From contig NZ_JAPFGD010000002.1 in NCBI RefSeq assembly GCF_027257175.1, forward strand, positions 124,001-188,000: DNA of 64,000 bases. The letters are read 5' to 3'. Origin of the DNA: Castellaniella sp. S9. Its GTDB lineage: Bacteria > Pseudomonadota > Gammaproteobacteria > Burkholderiales > Burkholderiaceae_B. The notes under the pieces were generated by a model. That model ran no database searches and was not told where the DNA came from. It saw only the letters and a program-made list of their open reading frames with translations. This document shows, in pieces, positions 18,986 through 61,505 of the stretch (positions are counted from its first letter, which is position 1; each line of letters opens with the position of its first letter). The translations under genes and the position numbers were made by a program.

Positions 18986-19798
18986 GTGAGCCAACAACCA
19001 AACCTTAGTCCGGCAGAAGTATATGAGCGCTACCTTAGCCGTGCGATTGCAGATCCTTGGACGCGTGTGCTGCTTGAATTGGCGTCACCCCAACCCGGCG
19101 AGCGAGTTCTGGATCTTGCCTGCGGTACGGGCAGTGTCGCACGGCAGGTCGCTCCCATGGTTGGGGTAAGCGGTCAGGTCCTTGCTCTGGATATCAATGC
19201 AGAAATGCTGGAAGTAGGTCGTGCACAACCGGCACCGGCTGGTGCTTCGATACTCTGGCAAGAGGGTAATGCAACTCGCCTCGAACTTCCCGGTGACGCG
19301 TTTGATCTTGTGTTGTGTCAACAAGGACTTCAGTTCTTTCTCGACCGAGTGCTTTCAGGTCGCGAAATGCGTCGCGTGCTACGCAATGGCGGTAGCGCAG
19401 TCATCAGTGTGTGGCAGTCCCTGAGCCGACATCCCGTGTATGAGGCGTTGTTTACGGCAACTGCACGCCTTCTTGATGTGCCCATCACGGACGTCGATGT
19501 TGCCTTTTCATTATCCAACCCCGATGAGCTATACACATTGCTCAGCGAGGCGGGCTTTCAATATATCGAAATCACTCCGCGATCACTGTCTATTCGCCTG
19601 CCTGAGCCAGAAAAGTTTGTTCAGTTTTCGATACTGGGCGCAGCCACGTCAGTGCCAGCGTTTGCATCTATGGATGCCGTAGAGCGCCTCGCTCTTGTGG
19701 ACGAAGTAAGGGCGGAGACGCACGCCATCGTGCAAGGCTTTCGGGATGGGGATGCTCTCGCATTTTCTATGGAAACAAACATCGCGATTGCAAAATAA
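18986..19798 (+). CDS. Class I SAM-dependent methyltransferase (UbiE/Methyltransf_11-like)
   Basis: A 270-residue cytosolic methyltransferase. The SAM-binding motif I VLDLACGTGSVARQV is at about residues 40-54, with an acidic residue (LALDIN) ending the second strand and post-I motifs (FDLVLCQQGLQFF). The substrate cannot be predicted; the Cys-poor sequence argues against ArsM-like metalloid methylation. The start is GTG with AGGAG six to seven bases upstream. It lies between copA and the CzcI-like gene, so a link with metal stress is possible but unproven. Confidence 0.75.
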   Translation: MSQQPNLSPAEVYERYLSRAIADPWTRVLLELASPQPGERVLDLACGTGSVARQVAPMVGVSGQVLALDINAEMLEVGRAQPAPAGASILWQEGNATRLELPGDAFDLVLCQQGLQFFLDRVLSGREMRRVLRNGGSAVISVWQSLSRHPVYEALFTATARLLDVPITDVDVAFSLSNPDELYTLLSEAGFQYIEITPRSLSIRLPEPEKFVQFSILGAATSVPAFASMDAVERLALVDEVRAETHAIVQGFRDGDALAFSMETNIAIAK

Positions 19799-19871
19799 CC
19801 AACCCCCGGCTTCTACTTTTCATACCCTCGTTTGTAAGACACGCTTTTCACTTGGTACAATCGTTCCCGCA

Positions 19872-20228
19872 ATGAAGAAATTCCTCCTTATTTTTATGCT
19901 GGTCATGCTGCCGCTTCAGGCCTCCTGGGGCGTCGTGAGCGTGTATTGCCAGCCAGAAAGGGAGGTTTGCATCGCGCCCTGTGATAGCGAAGCTCAAGAG
20001 CAGCGTGTCTCTTTAAGCGACGGGTCCGAGCAAATTGGTTCAACCTCAGGTTTTTTGGACCAATACGAGCATTCATGCCAAGCACCAGCGGCGTCGATTA
20101 TTTCATCTGCACATCAAACTATCCCTTCCTTATCGTCTAGCTTGGCCCTTCAGTTTCATGAGGCGCAGCTCAGCTTGCCGACCTATTCCGAGCGGCCCGA
20201 GCGGCCCCAGTGGCTTTTCGTTGCCTAA
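19872..20228 (+). CDS. CzcI-like small exported protein
   Basis: A 118-residue protein with a signal peptide (MKKFLLIFMLVMLPLQASWG) and a mature part ending in SERPERPQW. This N-terminal sequence and the RPERP tail are typical of the CzcI family found at the head of cobalt-zinc-cadmium (czc) efflux operons. No czcCBA genes follow here, so it is an orphan. A clear paralogue is encoded at 36821-37165. The mature region has several Cys and His residues that could bind metal. Its function in czc systems is regulatory but poorly defined. Confidence 0.6.
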   Translation: MKKFLLIFMLVMLPLQASWGVVSVYCQPEREVCIAPCDSEAQEQRVSLSDGSEQIGSTSGFLDQYEHSCQAPAASIISSAHQTIPSLSSSLALQFHEAQLSLPTYSERPERPQWLFVA

Positions 20229-28747: not shown

Positions 28748-28898
28748 ATGAGGTGAATGTAGAACACAGATTGCGTGAAGACAACGAGATTTTAGAGCAG
28801 AGTATTGCGCTTCAGGCATTGAAGTTGCTGGATTAGGGAAGTGGCATCGCATAGCGGAGCCACTTGATAATCACACCGTAAGTTCTTTGGAGATCAAT

Positions 28899-29225
28899 AT
28901 GGCTCATGAAAAATTTCAATCTTGCATCGACGCTTGTTATGCCTGCGCCGCTGAGTGCGACCACTGCGCTGTTTCATGCCTGCAGGAACAGGACGTTAAA
29001 AGCATGGCGCGTTGCATAAAGCTGGACATGGATTGCGCGCAGATTTGCCGCATCGCGGCCAGTTATATGGCCAGGGGCAGTGAATTCGCCCAGGCGCTTT
29101 GTCGCTTGTGCGCAGATGTTTGCCAAGCGTGCGCAGATGAATGTGCCAAGCATCAAATGGATCACTGCCAGCGCTGCGCCGAGGCTTGCCGCAAGTGTGC
29201 CGAAGAGTGCAGGCGGATGGCATAG
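28899..29225 (+). CDS. Four-helix-bundle copper-binding protein (DUF326, Csp-like)
   Basis: A 108-residue protein with cysteines repeated every three or four residues along four predicted helices (CIDACYACAAECDHC ... CRLCADVCQACADEC ... CQRCAEACRKCAEEC). This pattern matches DUF326 / copper storage proteins (Csp), which hold many Cu+ ions inside a helical bundle. It has no signal peptide, so it resembles the cytosolic type. The start at 28899 has GGAG eight bases upstream. A cop-box-like site lies upstream. Confidence 0.85.
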   Translation: MAHEKFQSCIDACYACAAECDHCAVSCLQEQDVKSMARCIKLDMDCAQICRIAASYMARGSEFAQALCRLCADVCQACADECAKHQMDHCQRCAEACRKCAEECRRMA

Positions 29226-29480: not shown

Positions 29481-30182
29481 CTACCGGTTCAGCCTTGTAT
29501 AACAAAACCAAGCCAGACATCTCGCTCCAAGAAAACAGAACACCGTTAGCGCCATAGCCAGACCGGAATCGGCTACTAGTGGAGCGACCAATCCCGAGGC
29601 CAAGGTCATGACCATGGTTTGAACAAAACCTTGCAAGGATGCTGCCATCCCGCGTGCTGAGGGGAACAGATCGAGCGTCAGCAATGTAATGGTTGGGGTT
29701 ACAAACGACATGCCAACGGTATAAAGCGCTACGGGCAGAATGACCCAGGGCAGAACGGGCGGCAGAAAGGCGTTGTACACCACGTTGAGCACCGTGGCAC
29801 CCGCCATTATCAAGTATCCATAGCTGACGGCCGTCAATGGCGTGAATCGTTTCGCAAGTTTCCCTGCCAGGTAAGCGCCGAAGATTATGCCGGTCGTCGC
29901 AGGAATGAACAGCCACCCGAATTCCGCCTTACTTAATTCAAGATACTGAACAACGAAAATAGGCGCTGCGGAAACATACAAGAAAAAGCCTATGAAATTA
30001 CAACTTAAGGCCAGGGTCAATAACCAGAACGGCTGGCTTCTTAGCACAGCGCTGTAGTTTCGCAGCACCGCCGCTGGCCTCATCGATGTCCGTCGCTCCC
30101 GTGGCAAGGTCTCCGGCAGAAAGAAGTAGCTGGTCATCAGTTGCAGCCCGCTGAAAATGGCCATAAAGATGAATATCGGCGG
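29481..30182 (-). pseudogene. Truncated Bcr/CflA-type MFS drug transporter (C-terminal half)
   Basis: About 230 residues corresponding to the second half of a 12-helix Bcr/CflA family efflux protein, starting within the PPIFIFMAIFS segment that normally sits around helix 6. The N-terminal half is missing: at about 30183 the sequence changes into the 3' part of another minus-strand gene. An in-frame ATG at 30164 could give a protein, but without the first six helices transport is unlikely. The break marks a recombination junction. Confidence 0.75.
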
Positions 30183-30382: not shown

Positions 30383-30730
30383 AGTTCCTCAGGCAGAATT
30401 GCAGTGTTCCGGGGAGCGCTGTCTGCCTCACTTGGTCTTCATCACGTTTATCAGCAGCGTAAACGTTCCCACAGTGACAATGTCAACCGGCAGTATTTGC
30501 CGCCCGTTGTAAACATGGAACGCTTTGCCCTCTGTTCACCAGTGCCATTGAAACAATGCGAGCGCTTTGTACATATAGCAACAAATCTTTTGCTTCCTAG
30601 AGCGCTTTTCCAAAGATGACAAAGATGTAATGTCCGCGCAATCTGTCTGACAGCAACGGACCGTTACAGTAGGCTTGTCGGTAGATTTCCGCATAAAGCG
30701 CTAGCGACACAAGTACAAGGAGAGCTAACA
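30383..30730. other. Intergenic regulatory stretch upstream of DUF2933 gene
   Basis: No supported gene. It separates the divergent small helical protein gene and the DUF2933 gene and contains a CopR-box-like palindrome at 30616-30631. Confidence 0.5.
30616..30631 (+). promoter_or_regulatory. CopR-box-like palindrome
   Basis: ATGACA-AAGA-TGTAAT has six-base arms with one mismatch to the ATTACA/TGTAAT consensus. The equivalent site upstream of the second DUF2933 gene (61291-61306) carries the same ATGACA variant in the distal arm when read in gene orientation. It lies 100 bases upstream of the DUF2933 start. Confidence 0.6.
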
Positions 30731-31015
30731 ATGAAATGCGATATAAAAACGATGGTGAAAGGCGGTCTTGGGCTAGCCATGGTGATCGCTGTTGCGTATG
30801 CGGTATTGCCCGCCGCACGTGAATTGATTATTGCTGTGAGCCCATTCTTATTCTTCTTAATCTGTCCGTTGATGATGTTTTTCATGATGAAAGGCATGCA
30901 GTCGGGCCACAGCGATAACGAATCAAAGAAGGGCGAACCCGCCCAAGTGCCAATGCCGGAAGAGGCTAATGCTGGGGACCGTCGACGTTTACTAAACCAC
31001 AATAGAGCACCTTGA
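30731..31015 (+). CDS. DUF2933 family small membrane protein (copy 1)
   Basis: A 94-residue protein with two membrane helices (about residues 9-27 and 33-53) and the conserved CDIKTM start and SPFLFFLICPLMMFFMMKGM segment of DUF2933. The family is common in copper-resistance clusters but its function is unknown; Met-rich helices suggest copper interaction. A paralogue is at 60922. A 37-residue mini-protein gene and dsbD follow on the same strand with very short gaps. Confidence 0.8.
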   Translation: MKCDIKTMVKGGLGLAMVIAVAYAVLPAARELIIAVSPFLFFLICPLMMFFMMKGMQSGHSDNESKKGEPAQVPMPEEANAGDRRRLLNHNRAP

Positions 31016-31029
31016 TACCTGAGCAGGTC

Positions 31030-31143
31030 ATGGGAACCAAACTCACACGAATAGTTCTCTTAGCGCTAGCTGTAATTGGGTTGGTCGCTATTTTGGCCTT
31101 CGTTTTCATGGGCGTCATGATGGTCTGGATGATGAGTAGTTGA
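31030..31143 (+). CDS. 37-residue Met-rich membrane mini-protein (copy 1)
   Basis: A single-helix protein, MGTKLTRIVLLALAVIGLVA then AFVFMGVMMVWMMSS in outline. It begins 14 bases after the DUF2933 stop and ends one base before the dsbD GTG start, so it is embedded in the operon. A second copy at 59704-59817 has about 21 of 37 residues identical, including the MG-MM-WMM ending. Conservation in two places and position argue that it is a real gene. Function unknown; the terminal Met cluster may bind Cu+. Confidence 0.7.
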   Translation: MGTKLTRIVLLALAVIGLVAILAFVFMGVMMVWMMSS

Positions 31144-31144
31144 A

Positions 31145-33106
31145 GTGAAATCTATCCGTTTGTTGATGGCTCTGCTCGTGCTGGCACTGGCGTGGTTACC
31201 TGGCGTTAGTCCCGCACAATTTTCTGAAATGCCAGCCGACCCCACCGGTATTACAGTGTCGGCTTCTGCTTCCTCGAACAGTGGGACTCTGGGCTCCATG
31301 CGAAGTTTGTTTGGCAGCGAGAGTTCTGATCAAGAGCTGTTGCCACCAGATGAAGCGTTCAAAGTCTCGGTGAGGGCACGCGACGCCGATACGCTGGTCG
31401 CTACGCTTACTGCAGTAGACGGCTATTATCTTTATCGCGATAGGATTGCGTTTGACCTTCAGCAGCCATCCAACGCGGCGATCAAGAACGTCGCGCTACC
31501 CCAAGGTAAGCTTAAGGATGACCCCACTTTTGGGCAGGTCGAGGTGTATTACGGATCTGTCCAGATCCCAATTACGTTAAATCGGTTGTCTGGATCTATT
31601 TCCGAGCCGCTGATTCTGCAAGCCTCCTATCAGGGTTGTAACGATCCGACCGGAGTCTGCTATCCACCAATAAATAAAACGCTGTCCGTAGTTCTTGCCG
31701 CGGTAGCCCAGACCAGCGCCGCCTCAGCGGGTGCTAACGTCGCGCAAGCTCAAGCGAGTAGTGGCATCCCTCGAAGCACTGCCAAGGTCCAGGTCTCGGA
31801 AACAAGCCTCGTACGAGATCTGTTCGCTCAGGACAATGCGTGGGCGCTCATAGCCGCCTTCTTTGGTTTTGGCTTGGTTCTGGCGTTTACACCCTGCATG
31901 CTACCCATGATTCCGATTCTGTCGGGAATGGTTATTGGGCAAGGCCGATCACTAAGCCGCCGCCATGCCTTTGGCCTTTCTTTGGTATATGTGATGGCCA
32001 TGGCCGTCACTTACGCGCTCGCAGGTGTGGCCGCGGGGTTAGCAGGCACGATGCTCTCGGCATATCTGCAAAAGCCATGGGTATTGGGCAGTTTTGCCGT
32101 CGTCTTCGTACTCCTCGCGCTTTCCATGTTCGGCTTTTATCAACTCCAGATACCCGCTTCCATACAAAGTCGCCTAGCGGGCGCTGCAAACCGATCTGCC
32201 GGTGGCAAGGTCTTCAGTGTGTTCGTCATGGGCGTATTGTCCGCCGTCATTGTGGGACCGTGCGTTGCGGCACCTCTGGCCGGAGCACTGCTTTATATTG
32301 GGCAGACAGGAGATGTCGTGCTGGGTGGCTTGGCGCTTTTCTCGCTGGCTATAGGGATGGGTGTTCCGCTTCTGATCTTTGGCACCACAGCGGGTGCACT
32401 TTTGCCTAAGGCCGGCTCGTGGATGAGGTCCGTGCAGCACTTTTTTGGCGTCACGATGCTGGCGGTGGCCATCTACCTGATTTCCCCGGTCATACCCTCT
32501 GTCGTCCATATGAGCTTATGGGCCGTCTTGCTCATTATTTCTGCGATGTATCTGAAGGTGTTGGACCCGCTGCCTGACAGCTCGCCTGGGTTTGTGCGTT
32601 TTGGCAAAGGGGTAGGGGTCATTGCACTCATTTCGGGTTTGGCGCTGCTTATCGGCGTGCTGTCAGGAGGCCGCGATGTGCTGCAGCCCCTGAGTGGCTT
32701 AAGAGGTCCAGGTGTTGCGGCCGCACAGAATATCAGCTTGCCCGAGCTGCAGTTTAAGAAAACTACGAGTCTCGCCAACCTTGAGTCGCAATTGCAGGCG
32801 GCGGAAGGTCGCTACGTCATGTTGGACTTCTGGGCTGACTGGTGCGTATCCTGCAAAGAGATGGAGCGCTTCACGTTTACAGATGCCCAGGTAAGAAAAC
32901 GCCTCAAAGACGTCGTGTCGCTTAAAGCCGATGTGACCGCGAACAATGCCGACGATCAAGCGCTGCTCAAACGTTTTGGGCTCTTTGGCCCCCCCGGCAT
33001 CATCTTCTTTGACAGGCAAGGGGCGGAGATCGACTTTCAGGTTATCGGGTTTCAGGCACCCCAGAAATTCTTGCGCTCTTTAGATTCGGTCATGCCAGGT
33101 CAGTGA
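31145..33106 (+). CDS. dsbD: Thiol:disulfide interchange protein DsbD
   Basis: A 653-residue three-domain protein: signal peptide, periplasmic alpha domain with the CNDPTGVC pair, eight membrane segments with Cys-Pro motifs (TPCMLPMIP and GPCVAAPLAG), and a C-terminal thioredoxin domain with WCVSC near residue 570. It carries electrons from cytosolic thioredoxin to periplasmic proteins, keeping isomerases and cytochrome maturation thiols reduced. The GTG start lies two bases after the mini-protein stop, so translation is likely coupled. In copper islands DsbD may also repair copper-damaged disulfides. Confidence 0.92.
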   Translation: MKSIRLLMALLVLALAWLPGVSPAQFSEMPADPTGITVSASASSNSGTLGSMRSLFGSESSDQELLPPDEAFKVSVRARDADTLVATLTAVDGYYLYRDRIAFDLQQPSNAAIKNVALPQGKLKDDPTFGQVEVYYGSVQIPITLNRLSGSISEPLILQASYQGCNDPTGVCYPPINKTLSVVLAAVAQTSAASAGANVAQAQASSGIPRSTAKVQVSETSLVRDLFAQDNAWALIAAFFGFGLVLAFTPCMLPMIPILSGMVIGQGRSLSRRHAFGLSLVYVMAMAVTYALAGVAAGLAGTMLSAYLQKPWVLGSFAVVFVLLALSMFGFYQLQIPASIQSRLAGAANRSAGGKVFSVFVMGVLSAVIVGPCVAAPLAGALLYIGQTGDVVLGGLALFSLAIGMGVPLLIFGTTAGALLPKAGSWMRSVQHFFGVTMLAVAIYLISPVIPSVVHMSLWAVLLIISAMYLKVLDPLPDSSPGFVRFGKGVGVIALISGLALLIGVLSGGRDVLQPLSGLRGPGVAAAQNISLPELQFKKTTSLANLESQLQAAEGRYVMLDFWADWCVSCKEMERFTFTDAQVRKRLKDVVSLKADVTANNADDQALLKRFGLFGPPGIIFFDRQGAEIDFQVIGFQAPQKFLRSLDSVMPGQ

Positions 33107-36509: not shown

Positions 36510-36820
36510 GAAATTCCCGGACAGGTCAGATCTCCTGCCTGGGATTGAAAGGGCTTCGACAATTTGTGCTGAAAGTGTGTTCTTAGATTACAGAAAAGTA
36601 ATCGGACTGTCGCTAGTCTGACGGTTGGTTTAATTAAGATTAGAAATGGGAAATTTGTCGCTTCTTCCGCCGAGCCGATAGCCGCGAGCTGCAATAGCGA
36701 CACAAGACAGGACTTCCTTTGCGTGAAGAGATCAATAACTTTAGCCGTTGCTGCCCATCCATATCCGGCCGCCGTTTTGTCCAAGACCCCGTAGTGAGAG
36801 TCGGCATAATCGACGCTGGA

Positions 36821-37165
36821 ATGAAAAAATTCGTGTTAATCCTTGTGCTTGTTCTTCTGCCGCTCCAGGCGTCTTGGGGCGTGGTCAGCATGTATGTCGC
36901 ACAAGAGCACGATGCTTGCCTTCATCCATATTCCGAGAGCCAAGAGGTTAATGCCGAGCAGGGTGACGAGTGCGGCTCGACCACCGTAAGCGTTCATCAC
37001 AAAGACCACTTCTGTGGTCTGCATGCCTTGAGTATTGTTGAGACTTATCCACCTCGACTTACTCCGTTTTCATTTTCCATCGCGCCTCAAGTCGATGAGC
37101 CGCGGCTCATACGACAGACGCTCATTGAAAGGCCAGAACGGCCTAAATGGGCAGCGTCAGCCTAA
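36821..37165 (+). CDS. CzcI-like small exported protein (second copy)
   Basis: A 114-residue protein with the signal MKKFVLILVLVLLPLQASWG, nearly the same as the protein at 19872, and the same RPERPKW ending. The mature part is richer in His (HHKDHFCGLHA). Like the first copy it has no czcCBA genes next to it. The start at ATG 36821 is chosen for the signal peptide; the frame upstream is open but lacks homology-like sequence. It lies between an IS3 and an IS1-family copy, so it may be a rearrangement leftover. Confidence 0.6.
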   Translation: MKKFVLILVLVLLPLQASWGVVSMYVAQEHDACLHPYSESQEVNAEQGDECGSTTVSVHHKDHFCGLHALSIVETYPPRLTPFSFSIAPQVDEPRLIRQTLIERPERPKWAASA

Positions 37166-56500: not shown

Positions 56501-57637
56501 TTAAAAGCGAAAACTCAAACCGGCCACGAAACGGGTTTCCTGCTTGGAGTCGCCCGCCGCGCGCGCGTAATCCGCCGTTTTTCCGAATTTGCTGGACCAT
56601 TCCACGCCAACGTAAGGAACAAACTGACGCGTGACTTCGTATTTGAGACGCAAGCCCGCAGTACCGTCTGTCAGGCCGCTGCCAATGCCCCAGCGTTCAT
56701 CGTCCTTGCCGTGGAAATTTACTTCCACGCTTGGTTGAAGGTAGAGCTTCTGGGTAAGCAAAATGTCATACTCCGCCTTCAGCCCCAGAGCGGTTCGTCC
56801 GCTGGAGCCGACATAGGCGGTGGCATCCACCTCGAACCAGTAAGGCGCAAGTCCTTTAAAGCCGAATGCCAGCCATTCCCGGTTGGGCGCGCCCTGAGCA
56901 TGGTCGAATCGCACGCCCAGTTCCGTATCCCAGAACGTTGAAACCGCATGACGCCACAGCAACTGCGTCTCGGATTCCTGTAATTTTCCGCTCGCTACTT
57001 CGCCTTCCGCTTTGATGACGGCGCGGTTATAGGTGCTGCCGTACCAGGCCTCCCCTTCGTAGGCCGCCCACTCCTCGCCACGCGCCCTGACGTACTCTAA
57101 CCGGTCGAAGTTCACGGAACCGAAGTTGTGCATGTCCGACATGATCAGCGCATCTGAGGGTGGCAACGCATACTTGCCCGCGTTACGCACGTAGCCATCG
57201 GAGTAGGCATCCGGATCGCGGGCATCGGGTGGCGCCGATCCGCCTTGCATCTGCATATCGCCGTGGTCCATTTCGCCACCGCCCATATCCATTGCTCCCA
57301 TATCGTGAGCAGGGGCCGTCGCACCTGTGTTGGCTTGGCCATGGTTCATACCCGGCATGGACTCTGCTGGCTTAGGCGCGGTGGTCGGCTTCATTTTCAT
57401 CGTGCCATGGTCCATGCCAGGCATATTCATCTTGCTGTGATCCATGCCAGGCATGCTTGCTGCATCGGCAGGCGCCGAATTGGCCGGCATGGCGGTATGG
57501 CCACTATGGGCGTCATGCGCTTGGGCATAGGCAAAAAGCGGAGTTGCACCGAGCGTTGCGATGGCGACTCCAAGAATGCGTTTTCTTATATGGGTATTCA
57601 CGGTCAAGATTCCCTTCTTCTCGTTTATTGAGCTCAT
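56501..57637 (-). CDS. copB: Copper resistance outer-membrane protein CopB
   Basis: A 378-residue CopB/PcoB protein: signal peptide, a Met/His-rich region with repeated MPGMDH / MDHG / MNHG elements (about residues 40-130), and a C-terminal beta-barrel ending in SFRF. CopB binds copper and works with CopA in the periplasm and outer membrane. The ATG at 57637 overlaps the copA stop by four bases (ATGA); an internal GTG at 57604 with GAAGGGA upstream is an alternative start that would give a cleaner signal peptide. Confidence 0.93.
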   Translation of the reverse strand: MSSINEKKGILTVNTHIRKRILGVAIATLGATPLFAYAQAHDAHSGHTAMPANSAPADAASMPGMDHSKMNMPGMDHGTMKMKPTTAPKPAESMPGMNHGQANTGATAPAHDMGAMDMGGGEMDHGDMQMQGGSAPPDARDPDAYSDGYVRNAGKYALPPSDALIMSDMHNFGSVNFDRLEYVRARGEEWAAYEGEAWYGSTYNRAVIKAEGEVASGKLQESETQLLWRHAVSTFWDTELGVRFDHAQGAPNREWLAFGFKGLAPYWFEVDATAYVGSSGRTALGLKAEYDILLTQKLYLQPSVEVNFHGKDDERWGIGSGLTDGTAGLRLKYEVTRQFVPYVGVEWSSKFGKTADYARAAGDSKQETRFVAGLSFRF

Positions 57638-59484
57638 GCCACCACCACTTCGCGAAACATCCCCGCATCCATATGCAGCATCAGATGGCAGTGCCAAGCC
57701 CAGCGACCCAGTGCATCGGCGGTTACGAGAAAGCTGATGCGTTGCGCCGGCTGCACGGGAATTGTGTGACGGCGAGCTTGGAAGCTGCCGTCGGGGGCCT
57801 CCAGCTCACTCCACATACCGTGCAAGTGCATCGGGTGCGTCATCATGGTGTCGTTGTGCAATATGACTCTGACCCGCTCGCCGTAGCGGAAATGGACTGG
57901 CGTCGATTTTCCATATTCAACGCCGTCGAACGACCAGGCATAGCGTTCCATGTTTCCGGTCAGATGGAGCTCGATTTCACGCTCTGCACCGCGCGGATCC
58001 ATCGCACCTCCCACAGTGTGCAGGTCCGACAGCGTCAATACTCGGCGGCCGTTGTTGCGCAGCCCAATGCCGGGATCGTCCAGATTGGTGCGCGGCATGT
58101 CGACCCGCATATCGATACTTGGGCCATACTCGGTCTTGGCGTGGCGCACTTGGGTGCTGGCACCAGCCGCTGCCATTGCGCCATGATCCATGCCAGCCAT
58201 GCCAGCCATTCCAGCGTGATTCATGCCCTGCATGCTGCCATGGTTCATCCCTGCCATATTGCCGTGGTCCATACCTCCCATGGACGATTGGCCGGGCGCG
58301 CCATGATTCATTCCTGCCATGCCCGCGCCCATTGAGCCCATCATGTCCGCCATGGTGAGCCATTCTGCAGGGTCCAGCGCCGGCACGGGCGCTTCGAGAC
58401 CGGCACGCGTAGCCAGGGTGCCGCGGGCATATCCAGTGCGGTCCATGGCTTGCGCATATACGGTGTAAACGTCGTCTTTAGGCTGTACCAGCACGTCATA
58501 GGTCTCCCCAGGTCCGAACCTGAACTCATCGACCGTTACAGGCTCTACGTTCACGCCGTCAGCCTGGACCACGGTCAACTGAAGGCCGGGAATGCGTATA
58601 TCGTAAAAGGTATTGGCTGCACCGTTGATAAAGCGCAGGCGGACCTGTTCTCCGGCTCGAAACAGCCCCGTCCAGTTGCCCGCCGGTGTCGTGCCGTTCA
58701 TCAGGTAGGTCAGTACGTTCGCGGACAGGTCAGCCAAATCGGTCGGGCTCATGCGCATCTCGTTCCACATCTTGCGCTTGTCGATAGCAGCTTTTAGGCC
58801 ATCTCGCGAGGCATCCTGGAAGAAATCAATGGCGGTGGGTTGGTTGTAGTTGTAGTAGTCGCCTTGCATCTTGAGTTTGGCCAGGACTCGCATCGGATCC
58901 TCGTCGGTCCAGTCAGAGAGCTGAACGACGTACTCCCGATCCGCCCGTATGGGGTCGGTTTGTGTCGGGTCGATAATGATCGCCCCATAAACGCCGGTCG
59001 CCTCCTGCATGCCAGAATGGGAGTGATACCAGTACGTGCCGCTTTGTTCGACTTTAAATCGGTAGGTAAACGTTTCCCCTGGGGCGATGCCCGCAAAGCT
59101 AATGCCTGGCACGCCATCCATTTGGAAGGGCAGGATGATGCCGTGCCAATGGATGGAGGTGGCTTCCTTCAGGCGGTTCTTGACGCGAATAGTGATCGTA
59201 TCGCCTTCGCGCCAACGCAACGTTGGGGCAGGGAGCGAGCCATTCACCGTCGTCGCCATGCGAGGGTTGCCGGTGAAGTTGACGGGTGATTCACCGATCT
59301 CCAGGTTGAACTCGGTCCCCGTCAGCACAGCGGCTGAGCCGGTGCTCGTCTTGGCGGACGGAACTCCGGCAGCTCGGGCAAAGGGCGATAAGCCCAACAA
59401 TACGCCGCCGGCCGCTAGGCCCTGAACGAATCGGCGACGGGGCAGTATAGGTAGTGCAAGCGAGGACGGTAGCAGGTGTTTCAT
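57634..59484 (-). CDS. copA: Multicopper oxidase CopA (CopA/PcoA family)
   Basis: A 616-residue periplasmic oxidase exported by Tat (RRRFVQG in the signal). Copper ligands are in IHWHGI, WYHSHSG, HPMHLHG and WHCHLMLHMDAGM. A Met/His-rich insert of repeated MDHG / GMNHG / MAGM units (about residues 390-440) is likely a Cu+ docking site. It oxidises Cu+ to less harmful Cu2+. It heads copA-copB-cupredoxin on the minus strand, and a perfect cop box lies about 120 bases upstream. It is distinct from the P-type ATPase also named CopA. Confidence 0.95.
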   Translation of the reverse strand: MKHLLPSSLALPILPRRRFVQGLAAGGVLLGLSPFARAAGVPSAKTSTGSAAVLTGTEFNLEIGESPVNFTGNPRMATTVNGSLPAPTLRWREGDTITIRVKNRLKEATSIHWHGIILPFQMDGVPGISFAGIAPGETFTYRFKVEQSGTYWYHSHSGMQEATGVYGAIIIDPTQTDPIRADREYVVQLSDWTDEDPMRVLAKLKMQGDYYNYNQPTAIDFFQDASRDGLKAAIDKRKMWNEMRMSPTDLADLSANVLTYLMNGTTPAGNWTGLFRAGEQVRLRFINGAANTFYDIRIPGLQLTVVQADGVNVEPVTVDEFRFGPGETYDVLVQPKDDVYTVYAQAMDRTGYARGTLATRAGLEAPVPALDPAEWLTMADMMGSMGAGMAGMNHGAPGQSSMGGMDHGNMAGMNHGSMQGMNHAGMAGMAGMDHGAMAAAGASTQVRHAKTEYGPSIDMRVDMPRTNLDDPGIGLRNNGRRVLTLSDLHTVGGAMDPRGAEREIELHLTGNMERYAWSFDGVEYGKSTPVHFRYGERVRVILHNDTMMTHPMHLHGMWSELEAPDGSFQARRHTIPVQPAQRISFLVTADALGRWAWHCHLMLHMDAGMFREVVVA

Positions 59485-59602
59485 GTGAGCGTATCCCAAA
59501 GTCGAAAGAGGCAGACATCAATCATCCTTCGATGATCAAAGCCTCAAATTAAATTGATGACTAGCACTTTAACGAAATGCGCATGTCGGCCCAATGACGC
59601 CG

Positions 59603-59622
59603 GCATTACATTTTTGTAATGC
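59603..59622 (-). promoter_or_regulatory. CopR box upstream of multicopper oxidase gene
   Basis: GCATTACA-TTTT-TGTAATGC has perfect eight-base arms, the best cop box in the window. It sits between the mini-protein gene and the multicopper oxidase start, giving the copAB cluster its own promoter. Confidence 0.8.
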
Positions 59623-59703
59623 ATAGGTATTCTTCAGGTTGGGCCGTGTGGTTGCATTTTCGATACTGGCAGCAGGGAGGCACTTAAGCGTGTAACGCTC
59701 GCG

Positions 59704-59817
59704 TTAAGTGCCCATCATCCAAAACATCATGGCTCCCATGCCGACAAAAGCAAAAACGGCTATGAGTCCAATCGCCGCCAGTGCGATCACAAGGATTTTT
59801 ATCAGTTTATTACTCAT
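59704..59817 (-). CDS. 37-residue Met-rich membrane mini-protein (copy 2)
   Basis: A single-helix protein outlined by MSNKLIKILVIALAAIGLIA and ending GMGAMMFWMMGT. It is the homologue of the one at 31030 (about 21 of 37 identical). It lies downstream of the BNR-repeat protein gene on the same strand. A DUF2933 gene is also upstream here, as in copy 1. Confidence 0.7.
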   Translation of the reverse strand: MSNKLIKILVIALAAIGLIAVFAFVGMGAMMFWMMGT

Positions 59818-59874: not shown

Positions 59875-60846
59875 TTACTTATCGAGCGTCGTGCCACCTT
59901 TAGCAATCTGTAGCCAGGTCGCACCACGATCTTGACTGATATAGACGCTACGCTTGAAGGTCGCGATCGCAAGTTCTTCGTGGCGGGTAGGGTTTTGAGC
60001 AATAAAGGCCACCGCGTCTTCATCTAGTGCGGGAAGCTCGATTTTTTCTATAACTCCGCCGTCCTTCAGGTCCATGCGACTTAGCACGGGGACATTTGCA
60101 TAACTGCTAACCCAGAGGTGCTCGCCATCCAGATCGAACCACTGCGCAAGTACCTGCGCGCTCTGGACCAATGGCTCAAAATGGTTGCCCGCGTCACGAG
60201 ACAAGTACAACCCGTCGGCAGCGCCCACGGCAACGACGTTGACATCGCGCGGGTGCACCGCCAAGCTATTAATTTTGGCCCTTAGGCCGTTAGCGGCTGC
60301 CCGCGTCCATGCCAGGCCGTCTGTTTGAGTCATATACAGCCCAGCTTGGGGCATCCGGGTATTAGGCCCATAATTCAGGACGTACACCGCATCGGTTTCA
60401 TAGCTTGTGGCCAAGGTATGAAAATCGGACTCTCCTTCCAGCCCCAACTGTCGCCAAGTTTTTCCCGCATCCGTACTCTTGATGAGGCCGAACGGATTAA
60501 TTAGCTTCGAGCCTGTTGCGGGATGCCCGCTGCTGTAAAACGCCCCGCGGGTGGTGGCGAATCCCATGTAATCATGCTCGGGGCCGGCCATCTTTGTCCA
60601 TTGACCATTCGAATACGCCGCGATGCCATGATGGCTCGGGATCAGCAACTGTTTACCGTCTGTGCTATAGGCAAGCCCGTGCACGTGCGTGAGTTTAATC
60701 GGCGCAGCCTGTGCCAAAGTCATTATGGCTTGTGCATCGGCTACGGATGGATCGGTACTTGCGGTTGCTACGCCGATTCCGCCGAACATCAATAGCGTGC
60801 CAACGCTTGTTGCCGCCAGGCTGGTAAAAATCGTTTTAGAACTCAT
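59875..60846 (-). CDS. BNR-repeat exported protein (F510_1955-like)
   Basis: A 323-residue protein with a signal peptide and beta-propeller-type BNR repeats (STDAGKTW, SRDAGNHF, SQDRGATW), resembling the F510_1955 family often labelled glycosyl hydrolase or photosystem-stability-like. HVHGLAYS near residue 55 is a conserved family feature. No enzymatic activity can be deduced. It is set between DUF2933 and the mini-protein in a minus-strand copper cluster. Confidence 0.75.
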   Translation of the reverse strand: MSSKTIFTSLAATSVGTLLMFGGIGVATASTDPSVADAQAIMTLAQAAPIKLTHVHGLAYSTDGKQLLIPSHHGIAAYSNGQWTKMAGPEHDYMGFATTRGAFYSSGHPATGSKLINPFGLIKSTDAGKTWRQLGLEGESDFHTLATSYETDAVYVLNYGPNTRMPQAGLYMTQTDGLAWTRAAANGLRAKINSLAVHPRDVNVVAVGAADGLYLSRDAGNHFEPLVQSAQVLAQWFDLDGEHLWVSSYANVPVLSRMDLKDGGVIEKIELPALDEDAVAFIAQNPTRHEELAIATFKRSVYISQDRGATWLQIAKGGTTLDK

Positions 60847-60921
60847 CACGTGATATCCGTAAATCTAAGTGCTACCCCATCAGGAGTCCGCTATGGGTAG
60901 GGTAGGACGGCTGCGAGCCGG

Positions 60922-61182: not shown

Positions 61183-61505
61183 CTTCGTATCCTTCAAATA
61201 GGCGGGTTAATTCATATCCGCTCGGCAGCGTTGAGTGACGGTAGCGAATTCACTGTAGCGAAGTCATGCTGTCAGTCCGATTACGCCGCGATTACATTTA
61301 TGTCATGCGCGCGTTGCGTCTCCCGGTAGTCAAGCAACATGTTGTTATTTAAAGGCAAAAAGAATAGCAACGGCGGTCGCTGCGAGCTGCAAACGTGTGA
61401 ACTGATTGCCGAGGAAGCCGGTAAATGGCACGTTGGGCCAGCTTGACATTGCCGTAATGGCAAGGTTTAGTATTGTTATGCTGCATTACCTAAGGAGACA
61501 GCACA
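61183..61505. other. Divergent promoter region between DUF2933 and copZ-like genes
   Basis: About 320 bases with no supported gene, containing the CopR-box-like palindrome at 61291-61306. The minus-strand frame at 61281-61463 overlaps it and has no recognisable domain. Confidence 0.5.
61291..61306 (-). promoter_or_regulatory. CopR-box-like palindrome
   Basis: ATTACA-TTTA-TGTCAT, one mismatch from perfect arms. Read on the minus strand it is ATGACA-TAAA-TGTAAT, nearly the same as the site at 30616 upstream of the other DUF2933 gene. Confidence 0.65.

Follow-up and report, generated by a model that had tools for sequence, protein, structure and literature searches.

A narrowly distributed family of 37-residue single-helix membrane proteins tied to Met-type DUF2933 in copper operons

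The stretch of Castellaniella sp. S9 DNA analyzed here (64,000 nucleotides, hereafter the window) contains two copies of a 37-codon gene that we refer to as the mini. We find that the mini belongs to a real, narrowly distributed family of small membrane proteins that is tied to one subtype of DUF2933 in copper operons. A matching peptide occurs at the same position in other genomes and its codons bear the marks of purifying selection, which together take the observation beyond chance. The gene is conserved and linked to Met-type DUF2933, it sits among copper-resistance genes behind a shared upstream site, and its product is modeled as a single helix.

Two modules in the window

The initial annotation of this DNA described a DUF2933 gene and a mini-protein with a Met cluster as occurring twice, and the coordinates that it gave are right (Table 1). 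Each of the two DUF2933 proteins scores above the cut-off of PF11666, and the two minis are 57% identical, in agreement with its estimate. The tight packing that it described for copy 1 is also as we find it, with 14 bases between DUF2933 and the mini and one base between the mini and dsbD. The product of the copy 1 dsbD gene scores above the NF001419 cut-off and has the N-terminal, membrane and thioredoxin domains. For copy 2, the proposed pairing holds in that both genes are present, but the annotation left out the F510_1955-family gene that lies between them.

Table 1. Features of the two modules in the window and of a third module elsewhere in the genome (window positions unless a contig is named).
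Feature	Coordinates	Strand	Evidence or remark
Cop-box-like site ATGACAAAGATGTAAT	30616..30631	+	99 bases 5' of DUF2933 copy 1
Met-type DUF2933 copy 1, 94 aa, MKC...CPLMMFFMMKGM	30731..31015	+	PF11666, 55.4 bits (gathering cut-off 21), E 6.6e-15
Mini copy 1, 37 aa, single helix, lineage A	31030..31143	+	Selection and helix model
dsbD, 653 aa, GTG start at 31145, one base past the mini	31145..33106	+	NF001419, 583.6 bits (cut-off 330); PF11412, PF02683 and PF13098 present
Cop-box-like site ATGACATAAATGTAAT, 5' of DUF2933 copy 2	61291..61306	-	
Met-type DUF2933 copy 2, 86 aa	60922..61182	-	PF11666, 49.9 bits (gathering cut-off 21), E 3.5e-13
F510_1955-family propeller gene, separates DUF2933 copy 2 from mini copy 2	59875..60849	-	NF045728, 265.6 bits (cut-off 175)
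Mini copy 2, 37 aa, single helix, lineage B	59704..59817	-	Selection
Cop-box-like palindrome, interval between mini copy 2 and copA	59605..59620	-	0 mismatches
copA, multicopper oxidase, start codon provisional	57634..59499	-	TIGR01480, 976 bits
copB, outer-membrane copper resistance protein, start codon provisional	56501..57697	-	PF05275, 281.8 bits
Remaining cop-box-like sites	18718, 28732, 36587, 43853, 48512, 52010, 62027		
Third module: Met-type DUF2933, F510_1955 and divergent mini (MENKL...MMGR)	G000:C2:7350-9259		Loci L003, L036

The ribosome-binding sites 5' of the minis look weak by eye. A longer form of the mini (43 residues, from an in-frame TTG) was considered and rejected, because relatives have a stop codon directly before the ATG of the 37-residue form.

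The genome holds a third mini (G000:C2:9149-9259), which lies 3' of a DUF2933/F510_1955 pair, and a fourth DUF2933 gene (on G000:C1), which stands directly 5' of dsbD with no mini. Past the third module, the opposite strand encodes a small Cys-rich protein (GDCCVYCSYG) and carries MerP- and MerT-like genes (these genes recognized by eye).

Several other features of the window and of related loci were noted along the way. An inverted repeat (GGCACTTAA...TTAAGTGCC, 59679-59712) spans the stop codon of mini copy 2, and relatives compared by eye suggest that it is located within a remnant of the dsbD start. At some lineage B loci without dsbD, a short stretch 3' of the mini resembles the start of dsbD (by eye). 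On the 5' side of DUF2933 copy 1, positions 28887-29225 encode a DUF326 four-helix protein that scores below the TIGR04401 cut-off and resembles Csp copper-storage proteins; such a Csp-like DUF326 match is found 5' of DUF2933 in 21 of the 22 named loci described below, five of these matches being weak and partial. Between this gene and DUF2933 (29481-30164) lies what by eye is an MFS transporter reduced to its C-terminal part, the N-terminal half being absent. Finally, the frames at 19746-20228 and 36719-37165 both contain a similar MKKF.LI..LV.LPLQASWGVVS stretch and have no Pfam match at 0.01; we presume a likeness to copper-responsive upstream frames (DUF2946-like).

Distribution and linkage to DUF2933

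When 151 genomes of the taxonomic family were searched with mini copy 1, we obtained 45 rows at E ≤ 0.1 from 29 genomes; DUF2933 (both sequence types) gave 82 rows from 42 of the same 151 genomes. Most of the mini rows (37 of 45) have a DUF2933 match on their own strand, 101-1617 bases upstream from them. All rows with E ≤ 0.0151 are linked to DUF2933 in this way, and none of the eight with E ≥ 0.0156 is. Counted from the other side, a linked mini accompanies 36 of the 82 DUF2933 rows, in 22 of the 151 genomes (the genome studied here included); the counts of 37 and 36 differ because one frameshifted mini copy was counted as two rows. The mini is present in 22 named loci, 21 of them from Alcaligenaceae and one from Nitrosomonas eutropha, and in all 22 DUF2933 is directly upstream. 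Conservation outside this genome, on which the original proposal had been made to depend, is therefore observed.

Beyond the family, searches across the order (399 and 250 genomes) and the class (369 genomes) yielded no additional full-length mini; what they added at E ≤ 0.01 were partial hits, the majority of them within long frames. Viral contigs gave no match to the mini. A tblastn search of plasmids with the mini and two distant relatives likewise gave no match, which does not imply absence given that the low-complexity filter may mask such peptides. One 45-residue single-helix peptide with a VLAVIGAIAVLGVFGMAVIHSGMLGRIGAC end (locus L039, 1471-1608) was not counted as a member because its 3-kb stretch contains no DUF2933. 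It comes from another family of the order, is similar to the third mini, and has neighbors that are apparently unrelated to copper (by eye); this likeness raises the question of convergence, as such helices may arise more than once.

DUF2933 subtypes and operon companions

Among the loci read, DUF2933 proteins are of two sequence types. The Met type has an MKC start and the motif CPLxMxFMMKGM, and the His type has a CPLMHxFMHGGHGGH-like motif. No mini was found downstream from His-type DUF2933 in any of 40 distinct frames, 39 of which could be followed for 1.3 kb or more downstream. For the Met type the corresponding figure is 31 of 44 distinct genes (30 with a hit, plus L036, whose mini lies past the locus end and is still counted), but the 44 are a biased, mini-enriched sample because many of the loci were retrieved through the mini, and the unbiased count is the 36 of 82 rows given above. 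The 31 include three broken copies, three without the Met cluster, and a 43-residue form at L097. No mini was found for 13 of the 44 Met-type genes, including the ones on the Burkholderia and Paraburkholderia plasmids read; DUF2933 can thus do without the mini.

The 22 named loci are rich in copper genes, with copS/copR in 19, an HMA-domain gene in 20, copA in 18 and F510_1955 in nine. The dsbD gene is whole or nearly so in six loci and a fragment in six; two loci reach a contig end, and no dsbD was detected in the remaining eight. One locus (L076) has the complete row of DUF2933, F510_1955, mini, dsbD and copA; F510_1955 and dsbD are also part of the mini/DUF2933 neighborhood. In lineage A the gap from DUF2933 to the mini is 7 or 14 bases. 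We infer that mini-dsbD-copA is the old gene order and that dsbD was lost from copy 2.

Some minis depart from the common form. In three genomes (L022-L024), the gene is in place and its helix uninterrupted, with the Met cluster absent. In two copies (L009 and L014) the Trp33 codon is replaced by a stop, and a third (L161, 862-945) is frameshifted; the dsbD genes behind these three broken minis still match, at 91-93% identity. In the divergent peptide of L160, the M..MM..MM spacing is kept.

Selection on the mini coding sequence

For 21 distinct mini coding sequences, chosen by a pattern (M1, M27, M30, M31, G/A at 28, and M/L at 34 and 35) that partly builds in residue conservation and that excludes broken or Met-poor minis, mean pS is 0.545 and mean pN is 0.185. 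Lineage A has a pN/pS ratio of 0.37 and lineage B one of 0.20; for the B copies with no dsbD behind them it is 0.16. Neutral simulations under a simple star-tree model have mean ratios of 0.83-0.94, and 0 of 500 in each of the three sets were as low as the observed value, although narrowly so for lineage A, where the lowest simulated value rounds to 0.37. Evidence independent of the pattern comes from the linkage count in 151 genomes, from the L160 peptide, and from the broken and Met-poor exceptions. Judged from these substitution patterns, the mini codons are evidently under purifying selection, also where dsbD has been lost, and such selection would imply that the mini is translated.

Helix model and Met stripe

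In the AlphaFold model (mean pLDDT 91.6), residues 3-36 of the mini form one helix, which, given its hydrophobic sequence, is expected to span the membrane. The Lys/Arg start and the uncharged end suggest a topology with the N terminus inside and the C terminus outside. M27, M30, M31, M34 and M35 share one face of the helix, an arrangement equaled in tightness by 3.3% of the 792 ways to place five residues in this stretch. The model of DUF2933 (helices at 3-25 and 27-72) is poor, with a mean pLDDT of 64.9. In this protein, C45, M48, M49, M52 and M53 (C..MM..MM) have the same spacing as the M..MM..MM of the mini; across 19 aligned Met-type sequences, M48 varies and the other four positions are invariant. 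Homology between the mini and the second DUF2933 helix was considered and set aside: hhalign pairs mini residues 24-36 with DUF2933 residues 42-54 on the M..MM..MM frame, so the register is right, but the probability is only 14%, and we claim only the shared spacing.

For the window minis, no Pfam or NCBIfam row reaches its cut-off. A scan of nine members, with cut-offs displayed for the first member only, gave no convincing family (the best Pfam E value, 0.0047, is to H_PPase and for one member; the best NCBIfam E value is 0.013). Profiles of the mini and of DUF2933 found no convincing match among solved structures (best E values of 0.4 and 0.58). Literature searches, in which papers were mostly judged by title and the start of the abstract, gave none that we recognized as concerning a mini-protein linked to DUF2933, and the passages found in a review of bacterial copper homeostasis (PMC7558416) name no such mini-protein. 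As far as family libraries and these searches reach, the family appears to be undescribed, as first suggested, and the selection described above is consistent with a genuine membrane protein.

Origin of the two copies

In a tree of 38 Met-type DUF2933 proteins, the named loci form two groups that match mini lineages A and B. Each group spans several genera, with moderate support (94/89 and 86/65) and some long-branched rows, and four named genomes have both lineages. The tree indicates that the two window copies probably stem from an old split. Horizontal spread of the operon lineages is likely, so duplication within the genome is not established. The initial annotation had proposed an old duplication with both copies kept; the age of the split agrees with our results, but the in-genome event does not follow from them. 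The mini and DUF2933 of copy 1 are 100% identical to those of Pollutimonas subterranea, and this identity suggests that copy 1 may have moved horizontally in recent times.

Cop-box-like sites

Ten sites in the window match, with at most two mismatches, a palindrome that we take to be the one named the cop box; 1.32 are expected, so about one of the ten may be due to chance, and none of 100 shuffles reaches 10. Such sites stand 5' of both DUF2933 genes and of copA. Four of the remaining sites are 120-200 bases 5' of other copper genes, which encode the Csp-like protein (28887), a cupredoxin (48727), a P-type ATPase (52174) and a response regulator (62166). Every one of the 22 named loci has a site with one or two mismatches, 91-109 bases upstream from DUF2933. 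These sites predict that the modules would be induced by copper, and it is on them and on the neighboring genes that the description of the mini as copper-related, made at the outset, rests.

Proposed role and alternatives

Our preferred reading, which we hold tentatively, is that the mini is a translated, single-pass accessory partner of Met-type DUF2933 in the inner membrane, and that within copper-resistance operons of the CopRS type it handles Cu(I). The positive-inside rule would place its Lys/Arg start in the cytosol and the Met stripe (M27, M30, M31, M34 and M35) at the periplasmic end of the helix. DUF2933 would be a hairpin of two helices whose MKC start and CPLMMxFMM stripe both lie close to the cytosol. 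The two proteins might jointly bind Cu(I) within the membrane, and the metal might then be passed on or shielded close to CopA, the periplasmic oxidase, and DsbD, the thiol reductant, the direction of any transfer being a supposition. The mini and DUF2933 are linked in the genome, and their physical interaction is hypothetical; copper handling seems likely for the operon and is putative for the peptide. Passages of one study link Scs redox proteins to copper resistance (PMC5524982), which would fit a thiol-redox partner for the mini and DUF2933.

The Cu(I) role is open to doubt because three genomes (L022-L024) lack the Met cluster and three minis are broken beside a dsbD that is apparently kept. 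Doubt also comes from the frequency of Met-type DUF2933 without a mini, the weak hhalign match, the variability of M48, the weak DUF2933 model and the weak ribosome-binding sites.

A possible alternative, to which we give real if lesser credence, is that the mini is a small regulatory or stabilizing subunit that tunes DsbD, DUF2933 or a copper pump and has no contact with copper itself, its Met cluster being a helix-packing surface. MgtS, AcrZ, KdpF and CydX are small proteins that bind and tune larger membrane proteins in this manner. A single conserved helix and the operon position are what such a subunit would have, and the lineage that retains the gene without its Met cluster is also in keeping with it. 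However, DsbD could not be the sole partner, as eight of the 22 named loci retain the mini although no dsbD is detectable and six retain it next to a dsbD fragment, and the M..MM..MM spacing matches that of DUF2933 and is retained even in the divergent L160 peptide.

A stronger version of the preferred reading, which we consider unlikely, is that Met-type DUF2933 and the mini form a two-component, Met-lined path for Cu(I) across the membrane. The C..MM..MM of DUF2933 would then lie at the cytosolic end and the M..MM..MM of the mini at the periplasmic end, with copper fed or drained next to the periplasmic oxidase and DsbD. If true, such a path would make a minimal conduit for copper and would differ from P-type pumps, RND pumps and CTR1.

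It is improbable that the mini is a remnant that now does nothing and is decaying as a passenger on mobile copper islands. Decay could account for the three broken copies (L009, L014 and L161) and for the 13 of 44 distinct Met-type DUF2933 genes with no mini found; against it are pN/pS ratios far below the neutral means (0.16-0.37 versus 0.83-0.94) and the persistence of intact minis beside fragments of dsbD and, in L157, beside an F510_1955 gene that is mostly gone. Least credible, and very improbable, is a cis-acting leader whose translation couples or regulates that of dsbD while the peptide itself is inert: the one-base gap to dsbD in copy 1 and the 7- or 14-base gap past DUF2933 in lineage A would suit it, but the amino-acid sequence is under purifying selection even in B copies with no dsbD following, mini copy 2 has behind it a distinct cop-box-like site and copA, and the three broken minis precede well-matching dsbD genes.

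Relation to known systems

The Pfam entry for DUF2933 gives no function, and the parts of two papers that place it in copper clusters give none either (PMC8478169; PMC12582456). A tiny partner that tracks one DUF2933 subtype and has the same Met spacing makes of DUF2933 a testable pair. More generally, copper operons may hold genes short enough for gene callers to overlook.

The classic, His-type DUF2933 (PF11666) likewise has two hydrophobic stretches with the CPLM core at the second. It differs from the Met type in its CPLMHxFMHGGHGGH-like end, where the latter has CPLxMxFMMKGM, and in the absence of a downstream mini (0 of the 40 distinct frames). In Alteromonas and other marine genera, DUF2933 proteins, taken without regard to subtype, are reported beside a copper ATPase, a cupredoxin and an isoprenylcysteine methyltransferase (PMC8478169). 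Excerpts of a study of Cupriavidus metallidurans place a DUF2933 gene of pMOL30 within the copper-induced cop cluster (PMC7563307). This gene, which lies beside a P-type ATPase gene and by gene order is probably copO, is not of the Met type (CPLMHFHHAGRH). The DUF2933-CcdA-peroxiredoxin clusters on Paraburkholderia and Burkholderia plasmids also contain a DUF2933 of the MKC type, whose neighbors are cueR and a membrane gene of the CcdA type. In these clusters, CcdA replaces dsbD, and no mini was found downstream from DUF2933.

Like the mini, MgtS, AcrZ, KdpF and CydX are short, have one helix, and are associated with an operon or a partner. Taken as a group rather than compared one by one, they differ from the mini in its Met stripe, its copper context and its want of a convincing family-model match. 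The CTR1-type copper path is Met-lined. With no homology claimed, the mini resembles this path in having Met residues spaced by one helical turn that are proposed to bind Cu(I), and differs from it in being bacterial and a single helix.
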